From an uncultured Oscillospiraceae bacterium (GTDB taxonomy: Bacteria > Bacillota_A > Clostridia > Oscillospirales > Oscillospiraceae): a stretch of DNA of 13,320 bases. Made by a program: the position numbers and the translations under genes. The stretch is taken from positions 1 through 13,320 of the forward strand of contig CAJTTS010000085.1 of NCBI GenBank assembly GCA_910579155.1, read 5' to 3'. A model generated the notes under the pieces. The model searched no databases. It saw nothing but the letters and a program-made list of their open reading frames with translations, and was not told the origin of the DNA. This document shows positions 2,450-13,161 of the stretch, piece by piece (within the stretch, counting starts at the first letter, position 1; each line of letters starts with the position of its first letter).

Positions 2450-3070
2450 ATGGAAGGAACGACTTACGGCTATGTGCGGGTGTCTACCCAGGAGCAGAAC
2501 GAAGCGCGCCAGCTCAACGCTATGCGGGAGTTTGGGGTGACGGAAGAGCACATTATCGTAGAAAAGCTGTCAGGGAAAAATTTTGACCGCCCCCGCTACC
2601 AACGCCTGGTGCACGGGATTGGGGCGGCGGATGTGCTGGTAGTCAAAAGTATCGACCGGCTGGGGCGCAATTACGAGGAAATTTTGGAGCAGTGGGCCTT
2701 TATTACCAAGAAGCGCAGGGCCTCCATCGTGGTGCTGGATATGCCCCTGCTGGATACGAGACGGGGACGGGACCTGACCGGGACGCTGATCGCCGACATC
2801 GTACTCCAACTGCTCAGCTATGTGGCACAGACGGAGCGGGAGAACATCCGCCGACGGCAGGCGGAGGGCATCGCTGCGGCAAAGGAAAAGGGTGTGCGTT
2901 TTGGCCCGCCGCCCCGGGCATTACCGGGTAATTTCGATACGATGCGGCAGGCATGGCGGGACGGTCAGATTACATTGCGTGTGGCCGCAGATCGGTGTGG
3001 CATTCCAAAGTCTACCTTTCGAGATGCCGTGATCCGTGCGGAAACAGCCTTGGGCTGTGTGGGTCCATAA
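2450..3070 (+). CDS. Serine recombinase, resolvase/invertase family
   Basis: A 206-aa site-specific DNA recombinase, a typical size for small serine recombinases that resolve cointegrates or invert DNA. The catalytic domain (about residues 5-140) starts YGYVRVSTQEQN with the nucleophile Ser12 and the usual Arg10. It continues with VVKSIDRLGRN (Asp69, Arg70, Arg73) and the long E-helix TERENIRRRQAEGIAAAKEKG. The C-terminal part (about 160-200) is a helix-turn-helix domain (TLRVAADRCGIPKSTFRDAV). All key residues are present, so it is probably active. The start follows AAAGGAGG at 9 nt. It is the only plus-strand gene in the window and stands exactly where composition changes. It has no long C-terminal domain, so it is not a large serine integrase. 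It has no N-terminal MerR-like domain, so it is not an IS607 transposase. Confidence 0.93.
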   Translation: MEGTTYGYVRVSTQEQNEARQLNAMREFGVTEEHIIVEKLSGKNFDRPRYQRLVHGIGAADVLVVKSIDRLGRNYEEILEQWAFITKKRRASIVVLDMPLLDTRRGRDLTGTLIADIVLQLLSYVAQTERENIRRRQAEGIAAAKEKGVRFGPPPRALPGNFDTMRQAWRDGQITLRVAADRCGIPKSTFRDAVIRAETALGCVGP

Positions 3071-3119: not shown

Positions 3120-3156
3120 AAAAAATACCGCCCCACCCATTTGGGTGGGGCGGTAT
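3120..3156 (-). terminator. Intrinsic terminator ending the catabolic run
   Basis: A perfect 15-bp stem (3125-3139 with 3142-3156), rich in G and C, is followed on the minus strand by six T (3120-3125). It lies 55 bp after the stop of the last esterase gene. The recombinase gene converges from the other side; on that strand no T tract follows, although so strong a hairpin may still hinder read-through. Confidence 0.9.
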
Positions 3157-3211: not shown

Positions 3212-4207
3212 TTACAATTGGGCCTTGAAGAAAGCGCCGCTGTGCTCCAAACACTCCACCGCCTCGGGCATCATGCGGCCGTAGTGCATGAAGGCGTGGA
3301 GTGCGCCGGGAACGATGTCCACCTGGGTGGGGACATCGTAATACTTCATCATCTGCTCCAGTGTCTTGGTGTCGTCCAGCAGGGGGTCCAAGCTGCCGCA
3401 GCACATATAGATGGGGGGCACGCCGGTGGACAGGTCGTTGAGGAAGGCGGCGAAGTAAGGGTTCTCCATATCCTCTGCGTTGACATAGTAGCTCATGTAG
3501 GCGGCCAAGTCAGACCTCCGCATTCCGTCCAGCAGGGTGCCGTACAGCCGGGCGGAAGAGGAGTCCTGGAGCCAGAAGGCGCCGTAATACAGCAGCAGGG
3601 CCTTGACAAACTCATTGCCGCCGGGGGTGTCCCGGAGGTACAGGTTCACGCCAAGGGCCAGATTGGCTCCGCCGGAGTCACCGGCCAAGGCCATCTTGTC
3701 GGTGAGGATGCCGTACTCCGCGCCGTGCTCCTGGAAGAAACGCACCACCGCGGCGGACTCGTACAGGGGGATGGGGAACTTTGCCTCGGGGGCCAGGTGA
3801 TAATCCACACCGATGACACAGCAGCCGCTGGAGGCCATGACGGAACGCATCATGCGGTCATGGGTATCGTTGCTGCCCACGGTGAAGCCGCCGCCGTGGA
3901 TGAACACCACCGCGTAATGCTCCGGCTTGTCGTCGGGATAGTAGACCCGGGCGGGCACGTCCCCCATGGGCCCGGGGACCATAACTTCCACTGTCTTGAC
4001 CGCCTCGGGGCCGCCCTCGTTCCAGAAACGGCGCTCCTCCACATACTTCACCCGCAGCTCGTCCCAGGAGCAGTCGGTATCGAAGGCGTCGGCGGAGTGT
4101 TCGGCCTGATAGTCGATGACCTTCTTCATGCTCTCGCAGAGCATGGGATAGGGGTCGGGCTTGTTGATCTCATAATCGGGTTTGCGGTCGGGCATATAAA
4201 ATTCCAT
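3212..4207 (-). CDS. HSL-family (family IV) alpha/beta-hydrolase esterase, distal copy
   Basis: A 331-aa cytoplasmic carboxylesterase, about the usual length for bacterial hormone-sensitive-lipase-type enzymes, which hydrolyse short acyl or aryl esters. An N-terminal cap region (about 1-95) is followed by the oxyanion motif HGGGF (104-108), the strand VDYHLAPEAKFP, the nucleophile motif GDSGG (Ser178), Asp274 in SLDPLLDD and His304 in GALHAFMHYG, giving a complete triad. There is no signal peptide or membrane segment. The start is supported by AAGGAGG 9 nt upstream. It is the last gene of the run, 49 bp after the amidohydrolase, and is followed by the terminator. It is a close paralogue of the esterase at 6726-7730: the first 240 or so residues align without a gap and there is one single-residue insertion after that. 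The substrate is unknown. Confidence 0.92.
   Translation of the reverse strand: MEFYMPDRKPDYEINKPDPYPMLCESMKKVIDYQAEHSADAFDTDCSWDELRVKYVEERRFWNEGGPEAVKTVEVMVPGPMGDVPARVYYPDDKPEHYAVVFIHGGGFTVGSNDTHDRMMRSVMASSGCCVIGVDYHLAPEAKFPIPLYESAAVVRFFQEHGAEYGILTDKMALAGDSGGANLALGVNLYLRDTPGGNEFVKALLLYYGAFWLQDSSSARLYGTLLDGMRRSDLAAYMSYYVNAEDMENPYFAAFLNDLSTGVPPIYMCCGSLDPLLDDTKTLEQMMKYYDVPTQVDIVPGALHAFMHYGRMMPEAVECLEHSGAFFKAQL
3885..3913. repeat. 29-bp exact direct repeat, copy 1
   Basis: This stretch inside the distal esterase gene encodes the region around the HGGG motif. It is identical base for base to 7408-7436 in the proximal esterase gene. It reflects paralogy of the two genes and could serve as a recombination substrate. 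Confidence 0.85.
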
Positions 4208-4256
4208 GATACGTAACCTCCTTAAAATATGGGGCGCAGGTTCTGCCGGGCCTGAT

Positions 4257-5510
4257 TTAGAGTTGCTTTTTCATCTGTTCCAGCACGCCGGCGGCCGGTT
4301 TTCTGGGCGGCGGCGTGAAGCCGTCTCCCAGAAAGTCCAGCGCGTAGGAGACAGTGGCCGCCGTCCCCAGGCTGAGCCCCTGGGGATCCAGGTCGAACTC
4401 CGCGCTGTGGTGGGGCGCGCCGCAGCCCGCCCCATCCTGGATGCCCAGGAAGGCCAGCACGCCGCGATACAGGGTGTTGTAAACCGCCATGCTCTCCGAG
4501 GCCATCCAGGGGCCGGCGGGGGCCACGGCCTCCTGGCCCAGCGTCCGGCTCAGGCTCCACCGGGCCAGGTCTGCGCAGGCCGCGTCGTTGTATACGCCCG
4601 GTATTGGCTCCATGATGTAATTGTAGCGTACCGAGCAGTCGTAAATCTCGGCATCCTTTTCGACGATCCGCTTTGCCGCCGCCAGGAAGGGTTTGCCGCA
4701 GCTCTCCTCGTTGAAAAAACGAGCCAGGCAGGAAAACCGCAGACTGTCCGGAATGACGTTGGACTTATTCCCCCCCTGGAGCAGGCCCACGGCGTAGGTC
4801 AGGCAGTCGTTGGGGTCGGTGTGCCGCATCCGCACGGCGGCCAGGTCGTTGTAGATGCTCACGAAGCAGTCTACCGGGTTGTTGCACAGGTCCGGGCGGG
4901 AGCTGTGGCCTCCCTTTCCGGTGAGCACCACGTCGAATCCCAGCGCTCCGCACATGACATACCCCGGCTGAACGGAGATGGTGCCTGCGGGGGCGTCGGC
5001 ATAGACATGGATGGCGAAGCAGCCGTCCATCCCGTCAAAGCGGTCCTCCAGATATTCCAGCAGGGGGATCACGCCGTAGGAGGTCTCCTCCCCCTGCTCA
5101 AAAACGGCCACGATCTGGCCGGACCACTCCTCCCGGTGGGCGGACAGCACCTGGAGGGCGGACAGCAGCATAGCGGTGTGGGCATCGTGGCCGCAGGCGT
5201 GGGACACACCCTCCACCTCGCTGACCACCCGCTTAGGGCCGGACAGGTTGGAGGCGCTTTCACCCACGGGCAGGGCGTCCACATCGGCCCGCAGGAGCAG
5301 CCGCTTCCCCGGCCCCCGGCCGTCCAGCACGGTGACCAACCCGCCGTGCTCCACCCGGTCCACGGGAAGGCCCAGCGCGGTCAGCCGCCGCTCAATCCAA
5401 GCCAGGGTCTGCTCCTCCTGCCCGGAGAGCTCGGGATGGGCGTGGAGGTAGTCCCGGTCCGCGGCGATCTGGGCCCCCAGGGTCCGGCACTCCGTTCTGA
5501 CGTCAATCAT
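4257..5510 (-). CDS. M20D-family amidohydrolase (aminoacylase/hippuricase-like)
   Basis: A 417-aa metal-dependent hydrolase of peptidase family M20, subfamily D, whose members remove acyl groups from N-acyl amino acids or conjugates. Visible metal-site motifs are HACGHDAHTA (Cys106, His108), EQGEE (catalytic and metal Glu141/Glu142), AIHVYADAPAG (His168) and APHHSAEFDLD (His367/368). The lid/dimerisation domain begins near GFDVVLTGKGGHSSRP. Length and order are normal, and there is no signal peptide, so it acts in the cytoplasm. The ATG stands 9 bases after the stop of the MalY-type gene, which implies translational coupling and joint use of the two enzymes. A plausible role is releasing a free amino acid or cysteine conjugate from its N-acyl form (inferred). 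Known M20D relatives include hippuricase, indole-acetyl-amino-acid hydrolases and skin-bacterial N-acyl-glutamine aminoacylase. Confidence 0.92.
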   Translation of the reverse strand: MIDVRTECRTLGAQIAADRDYLHAHPELSGQEEQTLAWIERRLTALGLPVDRVEHGGLVTVLDGRGPGKRLLLRADVDALPVGESASNLSGPKRVVSEVEGVSHACGHDAHTAMLLSALQVLSAHREEWSGQIVAVFEQGEETSYGVIPLLEYLEDRFDGMDGCFAIHVYADAPAGTISVQPGYVMCGALGFDVVLTGKGGHSSRPDLCNNPVDCFVSIYNDLAAVRMRHTDPNDCLTYAVGLLQGGNKSNVIPDSLRFSCLARFFNEESCGKPFLAAAKRIVEKDAEIYDCSVRYNYIMEPIPGVYNDAACADLARWSLSRTLGQEAVAPAGPWMASESMAVYNTLYRGVLAFLGIQDGAGCGAPHHSAEFDLDPQGLSLGTAATVSYALDFLGDGFTPPPRKPAAGVLEQMKKQL

Positions 5511-5519
5511 AGCCGGCCC

Positions 5520-6686
5520 TCAGCGCTGGTCCATGGCGGTCTTGAAGCGAAGCAGGGCGTCTTCCAGCGCCTTCCGGGTGCAGGCCAGGTTAATGCGCTC
5601 GAAGCCGTCCCCCGCCGGGCCGAAGATGAAGCCGTCGTCCAGGAACAACTGGGCCTTTTCGTTGAGGAACTTGGCCAGGGTCTGGCCGTCCATGCCGAAG
5701 CAGCGGCAGTCGAACCAGCACAGGTAGGTGCCCTCCAGGTCGGCCACCCACACGTCGGGGAAATGCTTGGCCATGAAGTCCTTAAAATACTGGTAATTAC
5801 CCCAGATGTGCTGGTTGAGCTGGTCCACCCAGTCGCCGCACTTCCAGTAGCCCGTCTCCAGGGCGCGAATGCCGAAGATGCTGTAGCTGTAGCAGCCGCA
5901 GACGTTGACCTCGTCGTCCAGCTTCTTGCGAAGCGACCCGTTGGGAATGATGGCGTTGGCCACGCACAGGCCGGCCAGGGAGAAGGTCTTGCTGGCGGCG
6001 GTAAACAGGACGCAGTTGTCGGCGTACTTCTCCCCCAGGGTGGGATAGCTGATGTGCTGATGGCCGGGCATGATGAGGTCAAAGTGGATCTCGTCGCTGA
6101 CCACCAATACGTTGTGCTTCAGGCAGATGTCGCCCATCCGGCGCAGCTCCTCCTCCGTCCACACCCGGCCCACCGGGTTGTGGGGACTGCAAAGGATGAA
6201 CATCTTACACTGCTTGGCCTTCTCCTCGAAGTCGTCGAAGTCGATCCCATAGCGGCCGTTTTCCAGCTTCAGGGGGCACTCCACCAGCTTGCGGCCGTTC
6301 AGGTTCACCGCCCGGTAGAAGGGATAGTAGACCGGGGTGAGTACCAGCACGCTGTCCGTGGGCTGGGTGTAGGCCCGGACGGAGGCATACAGCCCCTGCA
6401 CCACGCCGTTGGTCTGGACGATCCAGTCCTGCTGGATGTCCCAGCCGTGACGGGTGGACAGCCAGTGCTTGACCGCGTCGGCGTAAGGCTTGCCCCACCA
6501 GGTGTAACCCCACATGCCGAACTCGGCGGTCTTTTTCAGCTCCTCGATGATCTCCGGCGGGGAGAGCAGCTCCATATCGGCCACAGACAGGGGCACCACC
6601 CCGGGGGCTGGGTCGGGGCCGATGGCGTCCCACTTGGCGGCTTCCATCCCCACGCGGGCGTGGGCGGTTTCAAAATCGTATTTCAT
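5520..6686 (-). CDS. MalY/PatB-family PLP-dependent C-S beta-lyase or aminotransferase
   Basis: A 388-aa fold-type I pyridoxal-phosphate enzyme. Characteristic MalY/PatB features are VPLSVADMEL near residue 31, GYTWW near 60, SPHNPVGRVW (Asn170), VVSDEIHFDL (Asp198 binding the pyridine nitrogen) and AASKTFSLAGL with Lys233 as the Schiff-base lysine. Characterised relatives split the C-S bond of cystathionine or cysteine S-conjugates to a thiol, pyruvate and ammonia; some also transaminate. The start at 6684-6686 is chosen for AAAGGAA 7 nt upstream; the frame also stays open to a GTG at 6725, abutting the previous stop, without a ribosome site. It lies 39 bp after the proximal esterase and 9 bp before the amidohydrolase, so the three are one transcription unit. 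The family call is firm; the lyase activity on a particular conjugate is inferred. Confidence 0.9.
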   Translation of the reverse strand: MKYDFETAHARVGMEAAKWDAIGPDPAPGVVPLSVADMELLSPPEIIEELKKTAEFGMWGYTWWGKPYADAVKHWLSTRHGWDIQQDWIVQTNGVVQGLYASVRAYTQPTDSVLVLTPVYYPFYRAVNLNGRKLVECPLKLENGRYGIDFDDFEEKAKQCKMFILCSPHNPVGRVWTEEELRRMGDICLKHNVLVVSDEIHFDLIMPGHQHISYPTLGEKYADNCVLFTAASKTFSLAGLCVANAIIPNGSLRKKLDDEVNVCGCYSYSIFGIRALETGYWKCGDWVDQLNQHIWGNYQYFKDFMAKHFPDVWVADLEGTYLCWFDCRCFGMDGQTLAKFLNEKAQLFLDDGFIFGPAGDGFERINLACTRKALEDALLRFKTAMDQR

Positions 6687-6725
6687 GTTGGGTTCCTTTC
6701 TTTCTTTGTCCATATACCGGCCCAC

Positions 6726-7730
6726 TTACGCGTCCAGCAGTTTTTTGTAGAAAGCCCCGCTGCGCTCCAGGCATTCCACCGCCTCGGGCATCATACGTCC
6801 GTAGTGCATAAACGCATGAAGTACGCCGGGGATCACATCCAACTGAACGTGCGTGCCGTGGGTGGACAGGATGGCTTCCAAGAGCCGGCTGTCGTCCAGC
6901 AGGGGGTCCAGATCCCCGCAGCACAGATAGGTGGCGGGAATGCCGTGGGTCAGGTCGGCGTTGATGGTCCGGTAATAGGGGTTTTCCATGTCGGCCCCAT
7001 CGGGCATATAGTTGTTTTTGTAGGCGGCCAGGTCGCAGCGGCGCATCCCGTCCAGCTCAGAGCCCTGTAGGCGGCGGGTGACGCCGTCCGTCAGGCCGAC
7101 GCCGGGATAGTACAGCAGCAGGGCGGAGACGTAGTCGTTCCCGCCAAAGGCGTCCCGCAGGTAAAGATTCGTGGCCAGGGACAAATTACCGCCGCCCGAG
7201 TCGCCCGCGATGGCCATCCGGTCAGGCAGGATGCCCCACGGCGCCCCGTTCTCATGGAAGTACCGGACCACTGCGGCACATTCGTACAGCGGAGTGGGGA
7301 ACTTTGCCTCAGGCGCCAAATGGTAGTCCACCCCGATCACCGCGCAGCCGCTGGCCGCCATCAGGCAGCGCATCAGACGGTCGTGGGTGTCGTTGTTGCC
7401 CACGGTAAAGCCGCCGCCGTGGATGAACACCACCGCATGGTGCTGCGGGGCGGCGTCCGGATAGTAGATGCGCACCGGGACCGGGCCGATGGGGCCCTCC
7501 ACCGTGGTTTCCACGGTCCTGTGCGCTTCAGGACCGCCCTCGTTCCAAAAGCGGCGCTCTTCGACGTAGTTTTTGCGCATCTCCTCCAGTGAACAGTTGG
7601 TGTCAAAGGCCCCCTTTGCGTGGGCCTCCTGCCAATCAATCACCCTGCGCATACCTTCACTCAGATGGAGGCGGGGGTCCAATTTGTTGACCTCATAGTC
7701 TACTGTATAGTCCGGCATAGAGAATTTCAT
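6726..7730 (-). CDS. HSL-family (family IV) alpha/beta-hydrolase esterase, proximal copy
   Basis: A 334-aa paralogue of the distal esterase with the same cap, oxyanion and triad layout: HGGGF (104-108), Ser178 in GDSGG, Asp275 in DLDPLLDD and His305 in GVLHAFMHYG. Both share the N-terminal pattern MPD..DYE.NK.DP and the segment YVEERRFWNEGGPEA, so they arose by duplication rather than by convergence. Differences cluster around residues 209-225 and 242-245, which may line the acyl or alcohol pocket and suggest split substrate ranges (inferred). AAAGGAGG lies 9 nt before the ATG. It is the first gene after the hairpin at 7855-7882 and so possibly the head of its own transcript. No signal peptide is seen. 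Confidence 0.92.
   Translation of the reverse strand: MKFSMPDYTVDYEVNKLDPRLHLSEGMRRVIDWQEAHAKGAFDTNCSLEEMRKNYVEERRFWNEGGPEAHRTVETTVEGPIGPVPVRIYYPDAAPQHHAVVFIHGGGFTVGNNDTHDRLMRCLMAASGCAVIGVDYHLAPEAKFPTPLYECAAVVRYFHENGAPWGILPDRMAIAGDSGGGNLSLATNLYLRDAFGGNDYVSALLLYYPGVGLTDGVTRRLQGSELDGMRRCDLAAYKNNYMPDGADMENPYYRTINADLTHGIPATYLCCGDLDPLLDDSRLLEAILSTHGTHVQLDVIPGVLHAFMHYGRMMPEAVECLERSGAFYKKLLDA
7408..7436. repeat. 29-bp exact direct repeat, copy 2
   Basis: Identical to 3885-3913 and in the same orientation, 3,523 bp away. The segment between the copies contains the whole MalY-type and M20D genes. Confidence 0.85.
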
Positions 7731-7854: not shown

Positions 7855-7882
7855 GCGGAGCCGCCGCGCCGGGCGGCTCCGC
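7855..7882 (-). terminator. Hairpin after the MFS permease, probable weak terminator
   Basis: An 11-bp perfect stem (7855-7865 with 7872-7882) with a 6-base loop, 20 bp after the MFS stop. On the minus strand it is followed by CTTCCTTCTCTCC, a pyrimidine tract rather than a clean T run. It may end or reduce transcription coming from the transporter genes and so separate them from the esterase-lyase-amidohydrolase run. Confidence 0.5.
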
Positions 7883-7902: not shown

Positions 7903-9174
7903 TTACTCCGCGGAGATGGCGTTGGAATTGGAGGCGCGGTGCTTCCTGATCAACCGTTCAGCCAGGAAGGCGCACACCAGGCCCAGCGCCATGGCGCAGC
8001 AGGCGGCGGTGAAAATGTTCTTGTAGCCGCCCACGGGGTCGGCCTCCAGCCAGCTTCCGCACAGGGAGGTGTAGAAGGTGTCGGGCAGGAAGCCAAAGAG
8101 GGAGGCGATGCCGATAACGCTGCCCACCATGTTCTTGGGGGTGCCGCTCTCGTCCACGGTGGCGTAGTACAGTGCGCGGAACACGTACACGGCCATGGAA
8201 GCCACGATGGTGATAATCATCACGGGCCACAGCACGGCGGCGGAGGCGGGGATGAGGATCATGCCGACGAAGCAGACAATGCCTACGATGCCCGCGCCGA
8301 TCATGGGCTTACTGGAGTTCTTCATTTTGGTGGCCAGCACAGCGGCCAGGGAGGCGCCGATGAGCTGGCAGACGATGCCCCGGTAGCTGGTGAAGGTGAC
8401 GGCGATGTTGGTGGGCATGCCGCAGAAGTCCTGGAGGTAGGGGGCATAGTAGGCGGCGGAGGCCAGGGTCATGGAGCCGCAGAAGATCAGGCCGGCCAGC
8501 ACGTAGGTGATGGGCCGCGTGAAGGCCACGCCCATGGCCTTGATGCTGTCGATGAGAGTGGCGTTGGTGGCTTCCTGAGCGTTGGATTTGGGCATGAGCA
8601 GAGCCAGGGCGACGCCCACCAGGATCATGATGACGGACACGGTGCGCACGATGGCGCCCATGGCCTTGACGCTATCGGAGGAGAAGATGTTGAACAGGGA
8701 CACGCAGATGGTGGTGACAATCAGGCCGGACACGCCGCGCAGGGCCTCCAGGCTGCCGAACATGCCGCCCTGCTCGTCGGAATCGGCCAGCAGGTTAATG
8801 CACTTGACGGAGGAGGACCAGAAGGTGAGCACGGTGGTGACGGCCCACAGCACGTGGATGGCCATCAGCATGGTGTAGCTGGGCCAGAAGGACTCCCACA
8901 GGCCCAGGATGCCGGTGCCGACCATGGAGAACACCAGCAGCTTCTTGGGGTCGAACTTATCGGCGATCCAGCCGCCGGGCAAATACAAAATCACGTTGGC
9001 GATGCCGTAGACGTTGAGCAGCTTGCCGTAGTCGGAATCCCGGCCCACCAGGCCCATGGCCTCCTGGAGGGGGGTGTAGTAGGTGTACATCAGGTAGGGC
9101 AGCACGTAGATGGTGTTCATAGCCAGCACCATCAGGATGAAGGTCAGGAACTTTTTCCCTTGCGGTTTTTTCAT
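7903..9174 (-). CDS. MFS permease, organic-anion/sugar-phosphate-permease-like
   Basis: A 423-aa polytopic membrane protein of the major facilitator superfamily with two six-helix halves. After a short basic N-terminus (MKKPQGKKF), TM1 starts at about residue 9. The motif A loop reads GGWIADKFDPKK (67-78). The second half starts near RPITYVLAGLIF, with a matching but degenerate loop at ATKMKNSSKP. The C-terminus is a short basic and polar tail. GGAGG lies 8 nt before the ATG. It differs clearly from the left-hand efflux MFS and lacks a neighbouring repressor, so uptake of a substrate for the downstream hydrolases is the simplest inference. It is separated from YitT by 97 bp and from the esterase by 172 bp with a hairpin. 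The substrate cannot be determined from sequence. Confidence 0.88.
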   Translation of the reverse strand: MKKPQGKKFLTFILMVLAMNTIYVLPYLMYTYYTPLQEAMGLVGRDSDYGKLLNVYGIANVILYLPGGWIADKFDPKKLLVFSMVGTGILGLWESFWPSYTMLMAIHVLWAVTTVLTFWSSSVKCINLLADSDEQGGMFGSLEALRGVSGLIVTTICVSLFNIFSSDSVKAMGAIVRTVSVIMILVGVALALLMPKSNAQEATNATLIDSIKAMGVAFTRPITYVLAGLIFCGSMTLASAAYYAPYLQDFCGMPTNIAVTFTSYRGIVCQLIGASLAAVLATKMKNSSKPMIGAGIVGIVCFVGMILIPASAAVLWPVMIITIVASMAVYVFRALYYATVDESGTPKNMVGSVIGIASLFGFLPDTFYTSLCGSWLEADPVGGYKNIFTAACCAMALGLVCAFLAERLIRKHRASNSNAISAE

Positions 9175-9271: not shown

Positions 9272-10150
9272 TCACGCCTTGCGGCCGGTGAGGGCCCGGG
9301 AGTTGAAGTTGCCGCCGATGAGCTCGTTGGCGGGCAGCAGCATGACGAAGGCGGCGGGGTCCAGGGAGGGCAGCAGGGCCTTCACCCGGGGCACCTCCGA
9401 GGGCTTCATGGCCAGGATGAGCATATTGCGCTCCGCTCCGGTGTACATTCCGGTGCCGGACAGGCGGGTCACCGCCCGGCCCAGGGCTTTCATCAGCGGG
9501 TCAGCCACCTGGTGGGCGTCGATGGAGGTGATGATCATGCAGATGCACCCCCGGTCGAAGCCCAGCACGATGCGGTCGGAGATCACCGAGCAGATGAAGA
9601 TGGTGATGATGGCGTACAGGCCGATTTCAATGCTCCCCGAGGCCGCCATGGACAGCAGCACCACCGTCCCGTCCAGCACCACGCTCATCTTGCCCACGCT
9701 CATGGTGGGGAACTTTTTGATGAGCAGGCGGTTGAGCAGGTCCGTGCCCCCGGTGGAGCCGTTGCCGATGGTGAGAAAGGCCATTCCCACCCCGTAGATC
9801 ACCCCGCCGAACACAGCGGCCACGGTGGGGTCGTCGGTGAGGGTGGGCAACCCCTCGAACAGCCAGATGGTGCCGGAGTACAGCGTGGCCCCCACGATAG
9901 CCCCGGCGGCGTATTTCCAGCCGTTGGTCAGCAGCGCCACCAGAAGAATAGGGATGTTCATCAGGTAGATCAGGGTGGCCACATTGATGGGGACAAATTG
10001 GTTGAGCACCACCGCCAGGCCGGAGATGCCCCCGGCGGCAATGTTGTTGCCAACCAGAAACAAATCCAGGGACAGGGAGTACAGCAGGATGCCACCCAGG
10101 ACATAGAGCCAGCGTTTGACGGTGGGGACATACTGAGACAGGTCGCTCAT
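9272..10150 (-). CDS. YitT family membrane protein (DUF161 plus DUF2179)
   Basis: A 292-aa protein with about five or six membrane helices in the first 200 residues, including LLYSLSLDLFLVGNNIAAGG and the family-typical GNGSTGGTDLLNRLL. A soluble C-terminal DUF2179 domain (about 215-285) is recognised by GTGMYTGAERNMLILAMKPSEVPRVK split around SGTGMYTG and the final LIGGNF. YitT-type proteins are widespread in Bacillota and their function is not settled. The start at 10148-10150 has GAGG 9 nt upstream. The frame extends much farther upstream, but that part lies antiphase inside the symporter gene and is not real. It begins 35 bp after the symporter stop, so it is probably co-transcribed with it. 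Confidence 0.9.
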   Translation of the reverse strand: MSDLSQYVPTVKRWLYVLGGILLYSLSLDLFLVGNNIAAGGISGLAVVLNQFVPINVATLIYLMNIPILLVALLTNGWKYAAGAIVGATLYSGTIWLFEGLPTLTDDPTVAAVFGGVIYGVGMAFLTIGNGSTGGTDLLNRLLIKKFPTMSVGKMSVVLDGTVVLLSMAASGSIEIGLYAIITIFICSVISDRIVLGFDRGCICMIITSIDAHQVADPLMKALGRAVTRLSGTGMYTGAERNMLILAMKPSEVPRVKALLPSLDPAAFVMLLPANELIGGNFNSRALTGRKA

Positions 10151-10185: not shown

Positions 10186-11811
10186 TCAGATCAGGCCGTT
10201 GTAGGGCAGAGCCCAGGTGAACAGCAGGAACAGGGTGGTCAGTATGCCCATGACGATCAACAGCCAGCCGTAGCGCCGGTCGATCTGATACTCCCGGGCC
10301 ACCCGTTCCTCCTTGGGGAGGACCAGCAGGCTGTCCCGGTAGGCGGACTCCTCCGCCGTCACCGGGCTGACCTTGGAGCCGACGACCGCGAAGATCAGGC
10401 TCAGGTACAGGCCGATGAAGAAGGGGTCCAGGAAGTTGATGAAGATGGCGTTGAAGGGGGCGACCCCGAAGCCCACCAGGCATTTGGAAATGATGAAGCC
10501 CAGGAAGCCCGCCGTCATGGACCACCGGGCCCCGGTGGCGGACAGCTTGCCGGACACAATGCTCCCCACGCCGGGCACCAGCCAGGAGGCGGCGATGATG
10601 GTGGAGGCGAACCAGGAGATCACCCGCACCCCGCCCAGGCCCAGGTAGGCCAGGACCAGGGAGACGATGCCCACCGCCAGCATGATGATGCGGCTGGTGC
10701 GCAGTTGGTGCTTCTCGTCCTTGAACTCCACGGGGAAGATGTCCGATGTGACCGAGAAGCCCACCACCGACAGGAAGGTGGAGGCGGAGGACAGGCCTGC
10801 GGCCATAATGCCCGCCAGCAGCAGGGTGCCCACCAGCTTGGGCATGACGTTGAACGCCGCCCAGATCAGCACCCGCTGGGGGTCCTCCATGTTGGGCTGG
10901 AGGTTGATGACCGAGATGGACATGATGTTTACATACAGCAGGAACACGGTGGTGCAGATGGCGGCGACGGCGCCGGAGCGGAAGGTGACGTGCTCGCTCT
11001 TGGCCATCAGGTTGCGCCCCGCCTGCCAGGGGGATACGCCCACGGTGATAAACCAGATGATGCCCATGGTGACGGCGTACATCACCGCGCCGAACACGTC
11101 GGAGGCCCCGGTGCCGGGGACGTTGCCGTGGTAGTCCAGCAGGCCCTCGGCGGCGGCGGGGTTGTTCATCAGGTTCTCCAGCAGACTGCCGATGCCGCCC
11201 TGGGCGTTGAAGATGTAAGGTCCGGCGATGATGGCGGCCACGATGAACACCATGAACATCATGGTGTCGGTGATGATGACTCCCTTGGAGCCGGACCAGA
11301 AGGTGAACGCGGTGAAGCAGGCCCAGGCGATCAGCAGGCACAGCTCGTAGCTCAGCCCGGTGAGCTCCTGCATGAGGATGCCCACGCCGGTGATGCAGGC
11401 CAGCAGGTAGGCCGTCAGCGAGATGATGGTGATGATGCCGGCGATCCGGCGGTTGCGGGGGTCCTTATAGCGGGTGCCGAAGTACTCCGGCATGGTGCCG
11501 CACTCCGACCGGCGCAGGTAGCGTCCGAAGAACAGCGGCCCGAATACGTAGCCGCAGGCGCACATGGAGTTGAGCAGTACCAGGGAGGTAATGTTGCCGG
11601 TGTAACAGAAGCCCTGGTCCCCCATGAAGCCGTTTACCGACAGCATGGAGGCGAACAGGGTGCCTGCGATGAGGATGGTGGGGGCGTTGCGGCCGCTGAC
11701 GTAGTAGTCGTCGATGTCCTTGACCTTCCGTCCCGCCAGCAGCCCTACCACCAGATAGACCGCAATGCTGACGATAACGCCCACAAAGAAGATGATGTTG
11801 CCGTCGTTCAT
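10186..11811 (-). CDS. Sodium:solute symporter (SSS family)
   Basis: A 541-aa polytopic membrane protein of the SSS/SSF family, which couples sodium entry to uptake of amino acids, carboxylates, vitamins or sugars. Family signs are the N-terminal helix ending in AGRKVKDIDDYYVSGRN and the TM2-3 region TLFASMLSVNGFMGDQGF, which resembles the sodium-site signature. About 13 hydrophobic segments follow, with the last helix LLIVMGILTTLFLLF at the C-terminus. The start MNDGNIIFF is chosen because GGAGG lies 7 nt upstream and because its ATG overlaps the stop of the preceding small gene (ATGA). A frame extension to 11853 lies within that small gene. The substrate is not recognisable. Neighbours suggest an organic acid or amino-acid-like solute feeding the local catabolic enzymes (inferred). 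Confidence 0.92.
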   Translation of the reverse strand: MNDGNIIFFVGVIVSIAVYLVVGLLAGRKVKDIDDYYVSGRNAPTILIAGTLFASMLSVNGFMGDQGFCYTGNITSLVLLNSMCACGYVFGPLFFGRYLRRSECGTMPEYFGTRYKDPRNRRIAGIITIISLTAYLLACITGVGILMQELTGLSYELCLLIAWACFTAFTFWSGSKGVIITDTMMFMVFIVAAIIAGPYIFNAQGGIGSLLENLMNNPAAAEGLLDYHGNVPGTGASDVFGAVMYAVTMGIIWFITVGVSPWQAGRNLMAKSEHVTFRSGAVAAICTTVFLLYVNIMSISVINLQPNMEDPQRVLIWAAFNVMPKLVGTLLLAGIMAAGLSSASTFLSVVGFSVTSDIFPVEFKDEKHQLRTSRIIMLAVGIVSLVLAYLGLGGVRVISWFASTIIAASWLVPGVGSIVSGKLSATGARWSMTAGFLGFIISKCLVGFGVAPFNAIFINFLDPFFIGLYLSLIFAVVGSKVSPVTAEESAYRDSLLVLPKEERVAREYQIDRRYGWLLIVMGILTTLFLLFTWALPYNGLI

Positions 11812-12021: not shown

Positions 12022-13161
12022 TTACAGGCCCATGCGGGAGGCGATGACCATCTTCTGCACCTCGGAGGTGCCCTCGTAAATTTCGGTGATCTTGGCGTCC
12101 CGCATCATGCGCTCCACGGGGTAGTCACGGGTGTAGCCGTAGCCGCCGAAGAGCTGCACGGCCCGCCAGGTGACCTCACGGGCGGTTTCGGAGGCGAACA
12201 GCTTGGCCATGGCCGCGTCCGAGGAGTAGGGGTCCCCGGCGTCCTTGGCGGCGGCGGCGCGGTAGACCAGCAGCCGGGCGGCGTCCACCCGGGTCTGCAT
12301 CTCGGCCAGCATGAACTGGGTGTTCTGGAACTTGGAGATGGACTTGCCGAACTGCACGCGGTCCTTGACGTACTTCACCGTTTCGTCGATGGCGCCCTGG
12401 GCGATGCCCAGCGCCTGAGCGGCAATGCCGATGCGCCCGCCGTCCAGCGTCATCATGGCGATCTTGAAGCCCTTGTTGAGCTCGCCCAGCAGGTTCTCCT
12501 TGGGCACCTTTACGTTCTCGAACACCAGCTCGCAGGTGGAGGAGCCCCGAATGCCCATCTTCTTCTCGTGGCTGCCGAAGGAGAAGCCCTCCCAGCCCTT
12601 CTCGATGATGAAAGCGGAGATGCCCTTGTTGCCCGCGGCCTTGTCGGTCATGGCGAACACCACGTAGGTGTCGGCCACCTCGCCGTTGGTGATGAAGATC
12701 TTGGAGCCGTTGAGCAGCCAGTGGTCGCCCTTGTCCTCAGCGGTGGTGCGCTGCATGGCCGCGTCGGTGCCCGCGTTGGGCTCGGTGAGGCCGAAGGCGC
12801 CCAGCTTATCGCCGGTGGCCAGGTCGGGCAGGTACTTTTCCTTCTGCTCCTGGGTGCCGAAGTGCTCGATGGGCCAGCAGCACAGGGAGGTATGGGCGGA
12901 GATGGTCACGCCGGTGCTGGCGCAGGCCTTGGAAATCTCCTCCACCGCCATGACGTACTCCAGGTTGCCCATGCCCACGCCGCCGAACTCCTCGGCGATG
13001 GGGATGCCCAGCAGGCCGATTTCGCCCATTTTGGGGATCAACTCAGAGGGGAAGCGCTCCTGCTCGTCCAGCTCGGCGGCGATGGGGCGCAGCTCCTTGT
13101 CCACAAACTCCCGGAACATGGTCTGCATGAGCTGCTGCTCGTCGTTCCACTTAAATTCCAT
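12022..13161 (-). CDS. Acyl-CoA dehydrogenase, short-chain/butyryl-CoA (Bcd) type
   Basis: A 379-aa FAD flavoprotein of the exact usual length, catalysing alpha,beta-dehydrogenation of short acyl-CoA, or the reverse with electron-transfer flavoprotein. Domains: N-terminal helical (1-120); middle beta-barrel with the signature GAFGLTEPNAGTD (121-133); C-terminal helical with the second signature QLFGGYGYTRDYPVERMMRD and the catalytic base Glu363 in EIYEGTSEVQ. AAGGAG precedes the ATG by 9 nt. It starts 34 bp after the end of another acyl-CoA dehydrogenase gene, so the two are likely co-transcribed. No etfA or etfB gene is inside the window. The Bcd-type assignment rests on strong family resemblance; chain-length preference is inferred. 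Confidence 0.93.
   Translation of the reverse strand: MEFKWNDEQQLMQTMFREFVDKELRPIAAELDEQERFPSELIPKMGEIGLLGIPIAEEFGGVGMGNLEYVMAVEEISKACASTGVTISAHTSLCCWPIEHFGTQEQKEKYLPDLATGDKLGAFGLTEPNAGTDAAMQRTTAEDKGDHWLLNGSKIFITNGEVADTYVVFAMTDKAAGNKGISAFIIEKGWEGFSFGSHEKKMGIRGSSTCELVFENVKVPKENLLGELNKGFKIAMMTLDGGRIGIAAQALGIAQGAIDETVKYVKDRVQFGKSISKFQNTQFMLAEMQTRVDAARLLVYRAAAAKDAGDPYSSDAAMAKLFASETAREVTWRAVQLFGGYGYTRDYPVERMMRDAKITEIYEGTSEVQKMVIASRMGL

Follow-up and report, generated by a model that had tools for sequence, protein, structure and literature searches.

The stretch of DNA analysed here (the window) comprises positions 1 to 13,320 of contig CAJTTS010000085.1 of an uncultured Oscillospiraceae bacterium (GCA_910579155.1). 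Its minus strand carries four intact genes, encoding an Aes-type esterase (est1), a MalY/PatB-type C-S lyase (MalY), an M20D-type amidohydrolase (M20) and a second Aes-type esterase (est2), which are followed in this order by a strong terminator (Table 1). The genes are separated by 39 (est1-MalY), 9 (MalY-M20) and 49 bases (M20-est2), and sequences resembling ribosome-binding sites precede est1, MalY and est2. The start codon of MalY is most likely the ATG at position 6686, preceded by GAAAGAAAGGA; the alternative listed, a GTG at 6725, is less likely. The terminator folds with -32.4 kcal/mol (z -6.3). A first-pass annotation of this DNA had described four same-strand genes with short gaps, the 9-base gap and a closing terminator, all of which were present, and had proposed a self-contained module for dismantling mercapturate-like conjugates. 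The same-strand unit reaches upstream of est1 and includes genes for a major facilitator superfamily (MFS) transporter, a YitT-type membrane protein, a sodium:solute symporter (SSF) and an acyl-CoA dehydrogenase (ACAD). As judged by eye, the N-terminus of none of the four proteins showed an obvious signal peptide, and the four enzymes are therefore probably cytoplasmic.

Table 1. Features of the window, with the evidence for each assignment.
Feature	Position	Strand	Evidence and remarks
Esterase 1 (est1), Aes-type acetyl esterase	6726..7730	-	NF007547, Abhydrolase_3
MalY/PatB-type pyridoxal phosphate (PLP) C-S beta-lyase	5520..6686	-	TIGR04350, Aminotran_1_2
M20D-type amidohydrolase (N-acyl amino acid deacylase type)	4257..5510	-	TIGR01891, Peptidase_M20
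Esterase 2 (est2), Aes-type acetyl esterase, HSL family	3212..4207	-	NF007547, PF07859
Intrinsic terminator 3' of est2	3125..3156	-	14-pair stem, then TTTTT
Stem-loop between MFS and est1	7855..7882	-	folding
MFS transporter	7903..9174	-	PF07690
YitT-type membrane protein	9272..10150	-	PF02588, PF10035; no counterpart in G123 cluster
Sodium:solute symporter (SSF)	10186..11811	-	PF00474
Acyl-CoA dehydrogenase (ACAD), acryloyl-CoA-reductase-like	12022..13161	-	NF042972 539.8 bits, under cut-off 640

The enzyme classes assigned in the first-pass annotation were upheld, as the family cut-offs were passed and the catalytic residues of all four enzymes align with those of known enzymes. Both esterases exceeded the cut-off of 389 bits for the Aes acetyl esterase family NF007547 (est2 406.1 and est1 405.9 bits), and est1 is 44% identical to E. 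coli Aes over 287 residues. The residues H104, G105 and G106 of the HGGG motif, the nucleophile S178 in GDSGG, D275 and H305, whose catalytic roles are known from the family, were invariant across 16 aligned relatives. The two esterases are 64% identical, and a tree placed each in a separate clade with its own orthologs, so that a recent duplication as the source of the second esterase was rejected. Unlike the clustered genes of the window, E. coli aes sits between hemH and gsk, and malY lies elsewhere, after malX.

MalY scored 406.3 bits with TIGR04350 (PatB C-S lyase; cut-off 340), and its best solved relative was cystalysin (E 2e-108). The PLP lysine and the surrounding active-site motifs, whose roles in PLP-dependent lyases are established, are kept in alignment with cystalysin and E. 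coli MalY. From what is known of the family, the enzyme would split cysteine S-conjugates by beta-elimination; microbial C-S lyases are treated in a review (PMC11203769). M20 scored 229.5 bits with TIGR01891 (cut-off 153.75), with ILL2, N-alpha-acyl-glutamine aminoacylase, 4ewt and YxeP as best solved relatives. Its Cys, His, Glu, His and His residues, which we take to be the metal ligands, align with the metal site of M20D aminoacylases (ILL2, AgaA-type aminoacylase, YxeP). M20 is predicted to perform N-deacylation as known for its family, and these aminoacylases are distant relatives (E 2e-41 to 3e-46) whose specificity is not transferable. The metal-dependent bile salt hydrolases described in PMC13081902 were left aside as a comparison, the family given there being PF07969, not M20.

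Relatives are referred to by G plus number for a genome and L plus number for a locus read in such a genome. A search of one collection with MalY was evaluated for the best 80 of 163 loci, 13 of which had at least 66% identity; eight of the 80 loci are shorter than 6 kb, and absences there say little. The closest locus, L001 of G001, reads ACAD-SSF-YitT-MFS-MalY-M20-est2 at 82-98% identity (ACAD 98%, SSF 95%), and G123 has ACAD-SSF-MFS-MalY-est2, lacking YitT and M20. An ortholog of est2 closes the cluster in G001 (87-88% identity) and in G123 (86%), while est1 is missing from both, so that the window has either gained est1 or its relatives have lost it. The MalY-est2 gap of G123 contains about 50 bases resembling the start of M20 (BLAST E 0.002 for the best 17 bases), possibly an M20 remnant, the match being short and the assignment resting mainly on position. 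The exact order est1-MalY-M20-est2 was seen in none of the relatives' loci read, so that the four-gene order looked for in gene neighbourhoods was not conserved.

Association of the individual genes was more persistent. Six of the 80 loci (L001, L002, L004, L008, L010 and L011), all among the 13 closest, have an Aes-type esterase gene no more than 3.5 kb from MalY; no such gene was present in the DNA read of the 67 more distant loci. In G003 a contig break falls between MalY and Aes. M20 is found within 3.5 kb of MalY in seven loci and as a same-strand neighbour in five (L001, L008, L010, L015 and L080), and few members of the set are less well conserved. The MFS gene, at 59-91% identity, directly precedes MalY in G001, G002, G003, G004 and G123. 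A second cluster is present in G002, G003 and G004, where a MalY of 31-32% identity adjoins an Aes of 44%, in G002 together with an MFS gene. In G127, Aes shares a same-strand run with genes for a glyoxalase-like protein, a peptide-type ABC transporter, M20 and a MalY-like protein that has a ferredoxin-like end, and in G012 M20, a glyoxalase-like gene and three Aes genes lie together. Thus rearranged clusters, and a paralogous one, bring MalY together with an Aes-type esterase, a transporter and in some cases M20, and the combination is not random. From the grouping originally proposed, the association of Aes with MalY stood and that with M20 stood in part; the fixed order did not.

Aes genes are rare in the taxa searched. 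At E 1e-60 the family yielded 4 Aes-bearing genomes among 400, the order 2 among 394 and the class 2 among 391, each count including G001. A PatB-family gene was present within 10 kb in 4/7 Aes loci of the five genomes drawn by Aes (P 2e-5), in 3/6 without G001 (P 5e-4) and in 2/4 for G123, G127 and G853 alone (P 0.005). These P values assume uniform placement and a search distance of plus or minus 10 kb, and the split-contig locus of G003 was scored as a miss; G001 was the centre of the Aes draws and G003 had previously been found via the MalY search. The genomes behind 50 of the 67 distant MalY loci were searched for Aes, and three gave a match at E 1e-40; the regions of G1201 and G1205 were read and G1213 was left out. 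No MalY lies within 10 kb of the Aes-like gene in G853 (34% identity) or in G1201 (42%); in both genomes this gene closes a run encoding a glycine-betaine-type (OpuAC) ABC transporter (L173:6263-10612 and L177:9980-14395). Near the weaker esterase of G1205 (28%) neither MalY nor an OpuAC-type transporter was found.

Several features of these loci were recorded in addition. In G002, G010, G012 and G127, a gene for a Glyoxalase_3 (PF13468) protein is found close to M20 and Aes genes (L141:6423-7223, L148:10135-10938, L144:8258-9040 and L140:8775-9572). Aes-type genes stand in tandem rows of four at L148:10943-15046 and of three at L144:9053-12261, perhaps specialised on several esters. The MalY-like protein of G127 (L140:771-2168, 465 aa) has a C-terminal 4Fe-4S ferredoxin-like extension.

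In the relatives, the genes end a longer carnitine-like run that lies mostly outside the window, which does not agree with a self-contained four-gene module. In G001 and G123, a gene for a LacI-type regulator comes first, followed by a CaiC-like ligase and electron transfer flavoprotein (ETF) genes on the strand opposite to the main run. The divergent arm carries two CoA-transferases, a GloB-like metallo-beta-lactamase (MBL) hydrolase, an enoyl-CoA hydratase, two acyl-CoA dehydrogenases, SSF, MFS, MalY and est2, with YitT and M20 in G001, and the set closes a run of 10-12 genes. Genes of these kinds, in a different arrangement, were found in G002-G004 and G011. An ETF-CaiC-ETF run closes with the esterase in G011, which is labelled Roseburia and, if this label is correct, would belong to another order than G001. 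CaiC is followed by several Aes genes in a row in G008 and G010. A MalT-like gene 3' of MalY in L002-L004 was rejected as a shadow frame without a Pfam match, the real genes being the CaiC-like ligase and ETF. As the window ends before the position of the CaiC-like ligase, this protein was scored in the relatives. It was present in 9 of 12 Aes-bearing genomes with 604-656 bits (NF005947 cut-off 651), and in seven of the nine it shares a contig with Aes at a distance of 0.4-15 kb. At E 1e-150 it was found in 1 of 392 genomes of the order of G011, namely G011 itself. Aes genes also occur beside BCCT and SSF transporters, and a relative of the window SSF with 64% identity adjoins BCCT and two Aes genes in G127.

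A palindrome with the consensus ACTTTAACGTTAAAGT, presumably of the kind bound by LacI-family proteins, was found in the divergent promoter of the CoA genes in five of nine genomes; the other four gave none at the level searched. A matrix built from the 13 sites in these promoters of the five genomes detected 23 sites in 521,057 bases of 17 genomes (overlapping loci included, repeated sites counted once), with 0.2 expected in order-1 random sequence and 0.35 when the random sequence was modelled on intergenic stretches alone. The motif was found after the fact and the sites are predicted. They occur in G001, G123, G002, G003, G004, G011 and G012. Twelve sites were outside the training set. Five precede MFS-MalY in G002, G003 and G004, where in G003 the contig ends inside the MFS gene and MalY is on another contig. 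One precedes MalY in G011 and one the Aes-glyoxalase-M20 run in G012; the remainder are three in the LacI/CaiC gap of G012, one in the G011 promoter and one inside a predicted gene of G003. No operator-like site was found in the window (best 10.5 bits), which is consistent with a single distant promoter as in G001 but is no proof of it.

Our preferred reading, to which we assign a probability of roughly 0.45, places the four genes at the distal end of a catabolic operon of gut Clostridia that is under LacI-type control, resembles the carnitine (Cai) system and has been equipped with conjugate-opening enzymes. The run of the window would continue upstream as in G001, be co-transcribed and respond to binding of the regulator. 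The SSF and MFS transporters would import conjugates, and the Aes-type esterases would hydrolyse O-acyl esters, the likeliest being those of a quaternary-amine hydroxy acid, for example acylcarnitine. M20 would take off N-acyl groups and the MalY/PatB enzyme would convert cysteine S-conjugates to a thiol, pyruvate and ammonia; the substrate of these two may be the molecule that the esterases attack, a separate conjugate or an adduct arising in the pathway. In this predicted sequence of steps, a CoA-transferase or the CaiC-like ligase would then activate the freed carboxylic acid, the crotonase would remove water and an acyl-CoA dehydrogenase would carry out the reduction, with ETF as an electron sink. 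Because Aes keeps company with CaiC, with BCCT and SSF and with OpuAC-type transporters, and the best solved relative of the SSF is the choline transporter SLC5A7 (a weak match, E 1e-7), the esterase contexts point to quaternary-amine esters as substrates.

The gene layout of the E. coli cai/fix system (CaiTABCDE, FixABCX) offers the nearest comparison. Both combine a CaiC-type ligase (in the relatives with scores around the cut-off), a CaiA-like dehydrogenase, family III CoA-transferases, a crotonase and ETF in one divergent locus, whereas the island of the relatives differs in its LacI-type regulator gene, its SSF and MFS transporters and the added esterases, MalY and M20. The P. aeruginosa carnitine operon caiX-cdhCAB-hocS includes the hydrolysis of short-chain acylcarnitines, as is proposed for the island, but it converts carnitine to glycine betaine (PMC5806209). 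The island may resemble the Cai system in its working, yet it was not classed as one. All the enzyme families have been described before, as has the system of which the Cai-like part is a variant; among the top-ranked results of the literature searched, no description of this gene combination was recognised.

A number of observations weigh against the preferred reading. The CaiC cut-off was passed in only 2 of the 12 genomes, seven scoring 604-649 bits and three giving no match at E 1e-80, and the G001 proteins remained below the Cai cut-offs (CaiA 420/540, CaiB 156/413, CaiD 206/500). Operator-like sites occur in only 7 of the 17 genomes, and G008, G010 and G127, among others, had none in the DNA read. 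In G005, G006, G007 and G009, which carry MalY orthologs of 74-77% identity, neither Aes nor M20 relatives lie in the MalY loci, and these genomes have no Aes at E 1e-30; in L005, mobile-element genes precede MalY and housekeeping genes follow it. Several of the relatives' records are from rabbit or roe deer according to their titles, where acylcarnitine may be scarce. To our knowledge, no role of MalY or M20 in the breakdown of carnitine has been reported.

It is unlikely, although a possibility worth stating, that mercapturate-like conjugates are stripped serially at the ester, the N-acyl group and the C-S bond, with the released thiol acid feeding the CoA pathway. The recurrence of MalY with M20 outside this lineage, among the loci counted above, and the same-strand run of G127 would agree with it, and the acryloyl-CoA-reductase-like dehydrogenase in the run of the window would fit products of the 3-mercaptopropionate type. 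G123, by contrast, keeps MalY and the esterase without M20, and the main MalY cluster of G002-G004 and G011 has no M20 alongside; serial action on one molecule is therefore not required there. Serial stripping also leaves the CaiC-like ligase and the betaine-type transporters unexplained. Mercapturates are possible substrates that none of these data favour, and the esterase contexts point instead to quaternary-amine esters.

A role in metabolite repair appears quite improbable. Enoyl-CoAs add to thiols, and MalY and M20 could clear cysteine and N-acylcysteine adducts of the reactive enoyl-CoAs of the pathway while the esterases handle the real substrate. The island does encode an enoyl-CoA route (crotonase, two acyl-CoA dehydrogenases and the GloB-like hydrolase), and MalY or MFS-MalY shares operator-like sites with the island in G002-G004 and G011. 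The MFS gene directly before MalY in five genomes suggests an imported substrate instead.

There is little likelihood that the run is incidental, that is, that general esterases, a cysteine desulfhydrase and a peptidase were gathered behind an unrelated operon. The esterase, MalY and M20 families have a broad substrate range, the gene order is not conserved, and the linkage excess is modest in the three genomes whose inclusion owes nothing to the MalY search or to the choice of G001 as centre. The excess across all five Aes-drawn genomes, the independent paralogous clusters (L141-L143) and the operator-like sites before MalY argue against chance assembly. A regulatory role, in which the Aes and MalY proteins would hold a MalT-like activator inactive, has its precedent in E. 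coli Aes and MalY, each of which binds and inhibits MalT, an inhibition whose physiological roles are called unclear (PMC10427625), but it is hardly credible and was rejected, since 0/7 of the E. coli MalY residues contacting MalT are kept in the window MalY, and no MalT-like protein turned up in the part of the genes that the Pfam analysis covered.

The preferred reading, that of a carnitine-like catabolic operon, can be carried further, with considerable doubt: the Aes-type esterases might be the missing hydrolases of acylcarnitine (quaternary-amine esters) in gut carnitine systems, E. coli included, and MalY/PatB lyases might serve the same nutrient route. If true, this would explain why the enzyme-type MalT inhibitors of E. 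coli are Aes and MalY, both reporting one class of host-derived conjugates. The placement of Aes in CaiC-type loci nominates it as an acylcarnitine esterase, a prediction testable by E. coli genetics, and a metabolic clue comes from the genomic linkage of Aes and MalY in Clostridia. The locus also supplies candidate genes for the cleavage of cysteine and N-acyl conjugates by gut anaerobes, and points to how gut bacteria may free and use acids packaged as conjugates.

The solved-structure search with the MFS protein gave no match. Three genomes share a stable stem-loop 3' of MFS, which has a short T run at most (in the window as listed in Table 1, L001:9905-9985 and L138:7945-8030). In G001 and G123 it directly precedes MalY, est1 being absent there, and it may be an mRNA-processing or attenuation element. 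On the minus strand at 197-2137, the window contains an AT-rich gene pair (GC 46% and 35%; neighbours 61-67%) that was likely acquired separately; it encodes an MFS efflux-like protein and a second protein whose TetR match stays below the threshold. A serine resolvase gene on the plus strand (2450-3070) lies just past the operon terminator and adjoins this pair.

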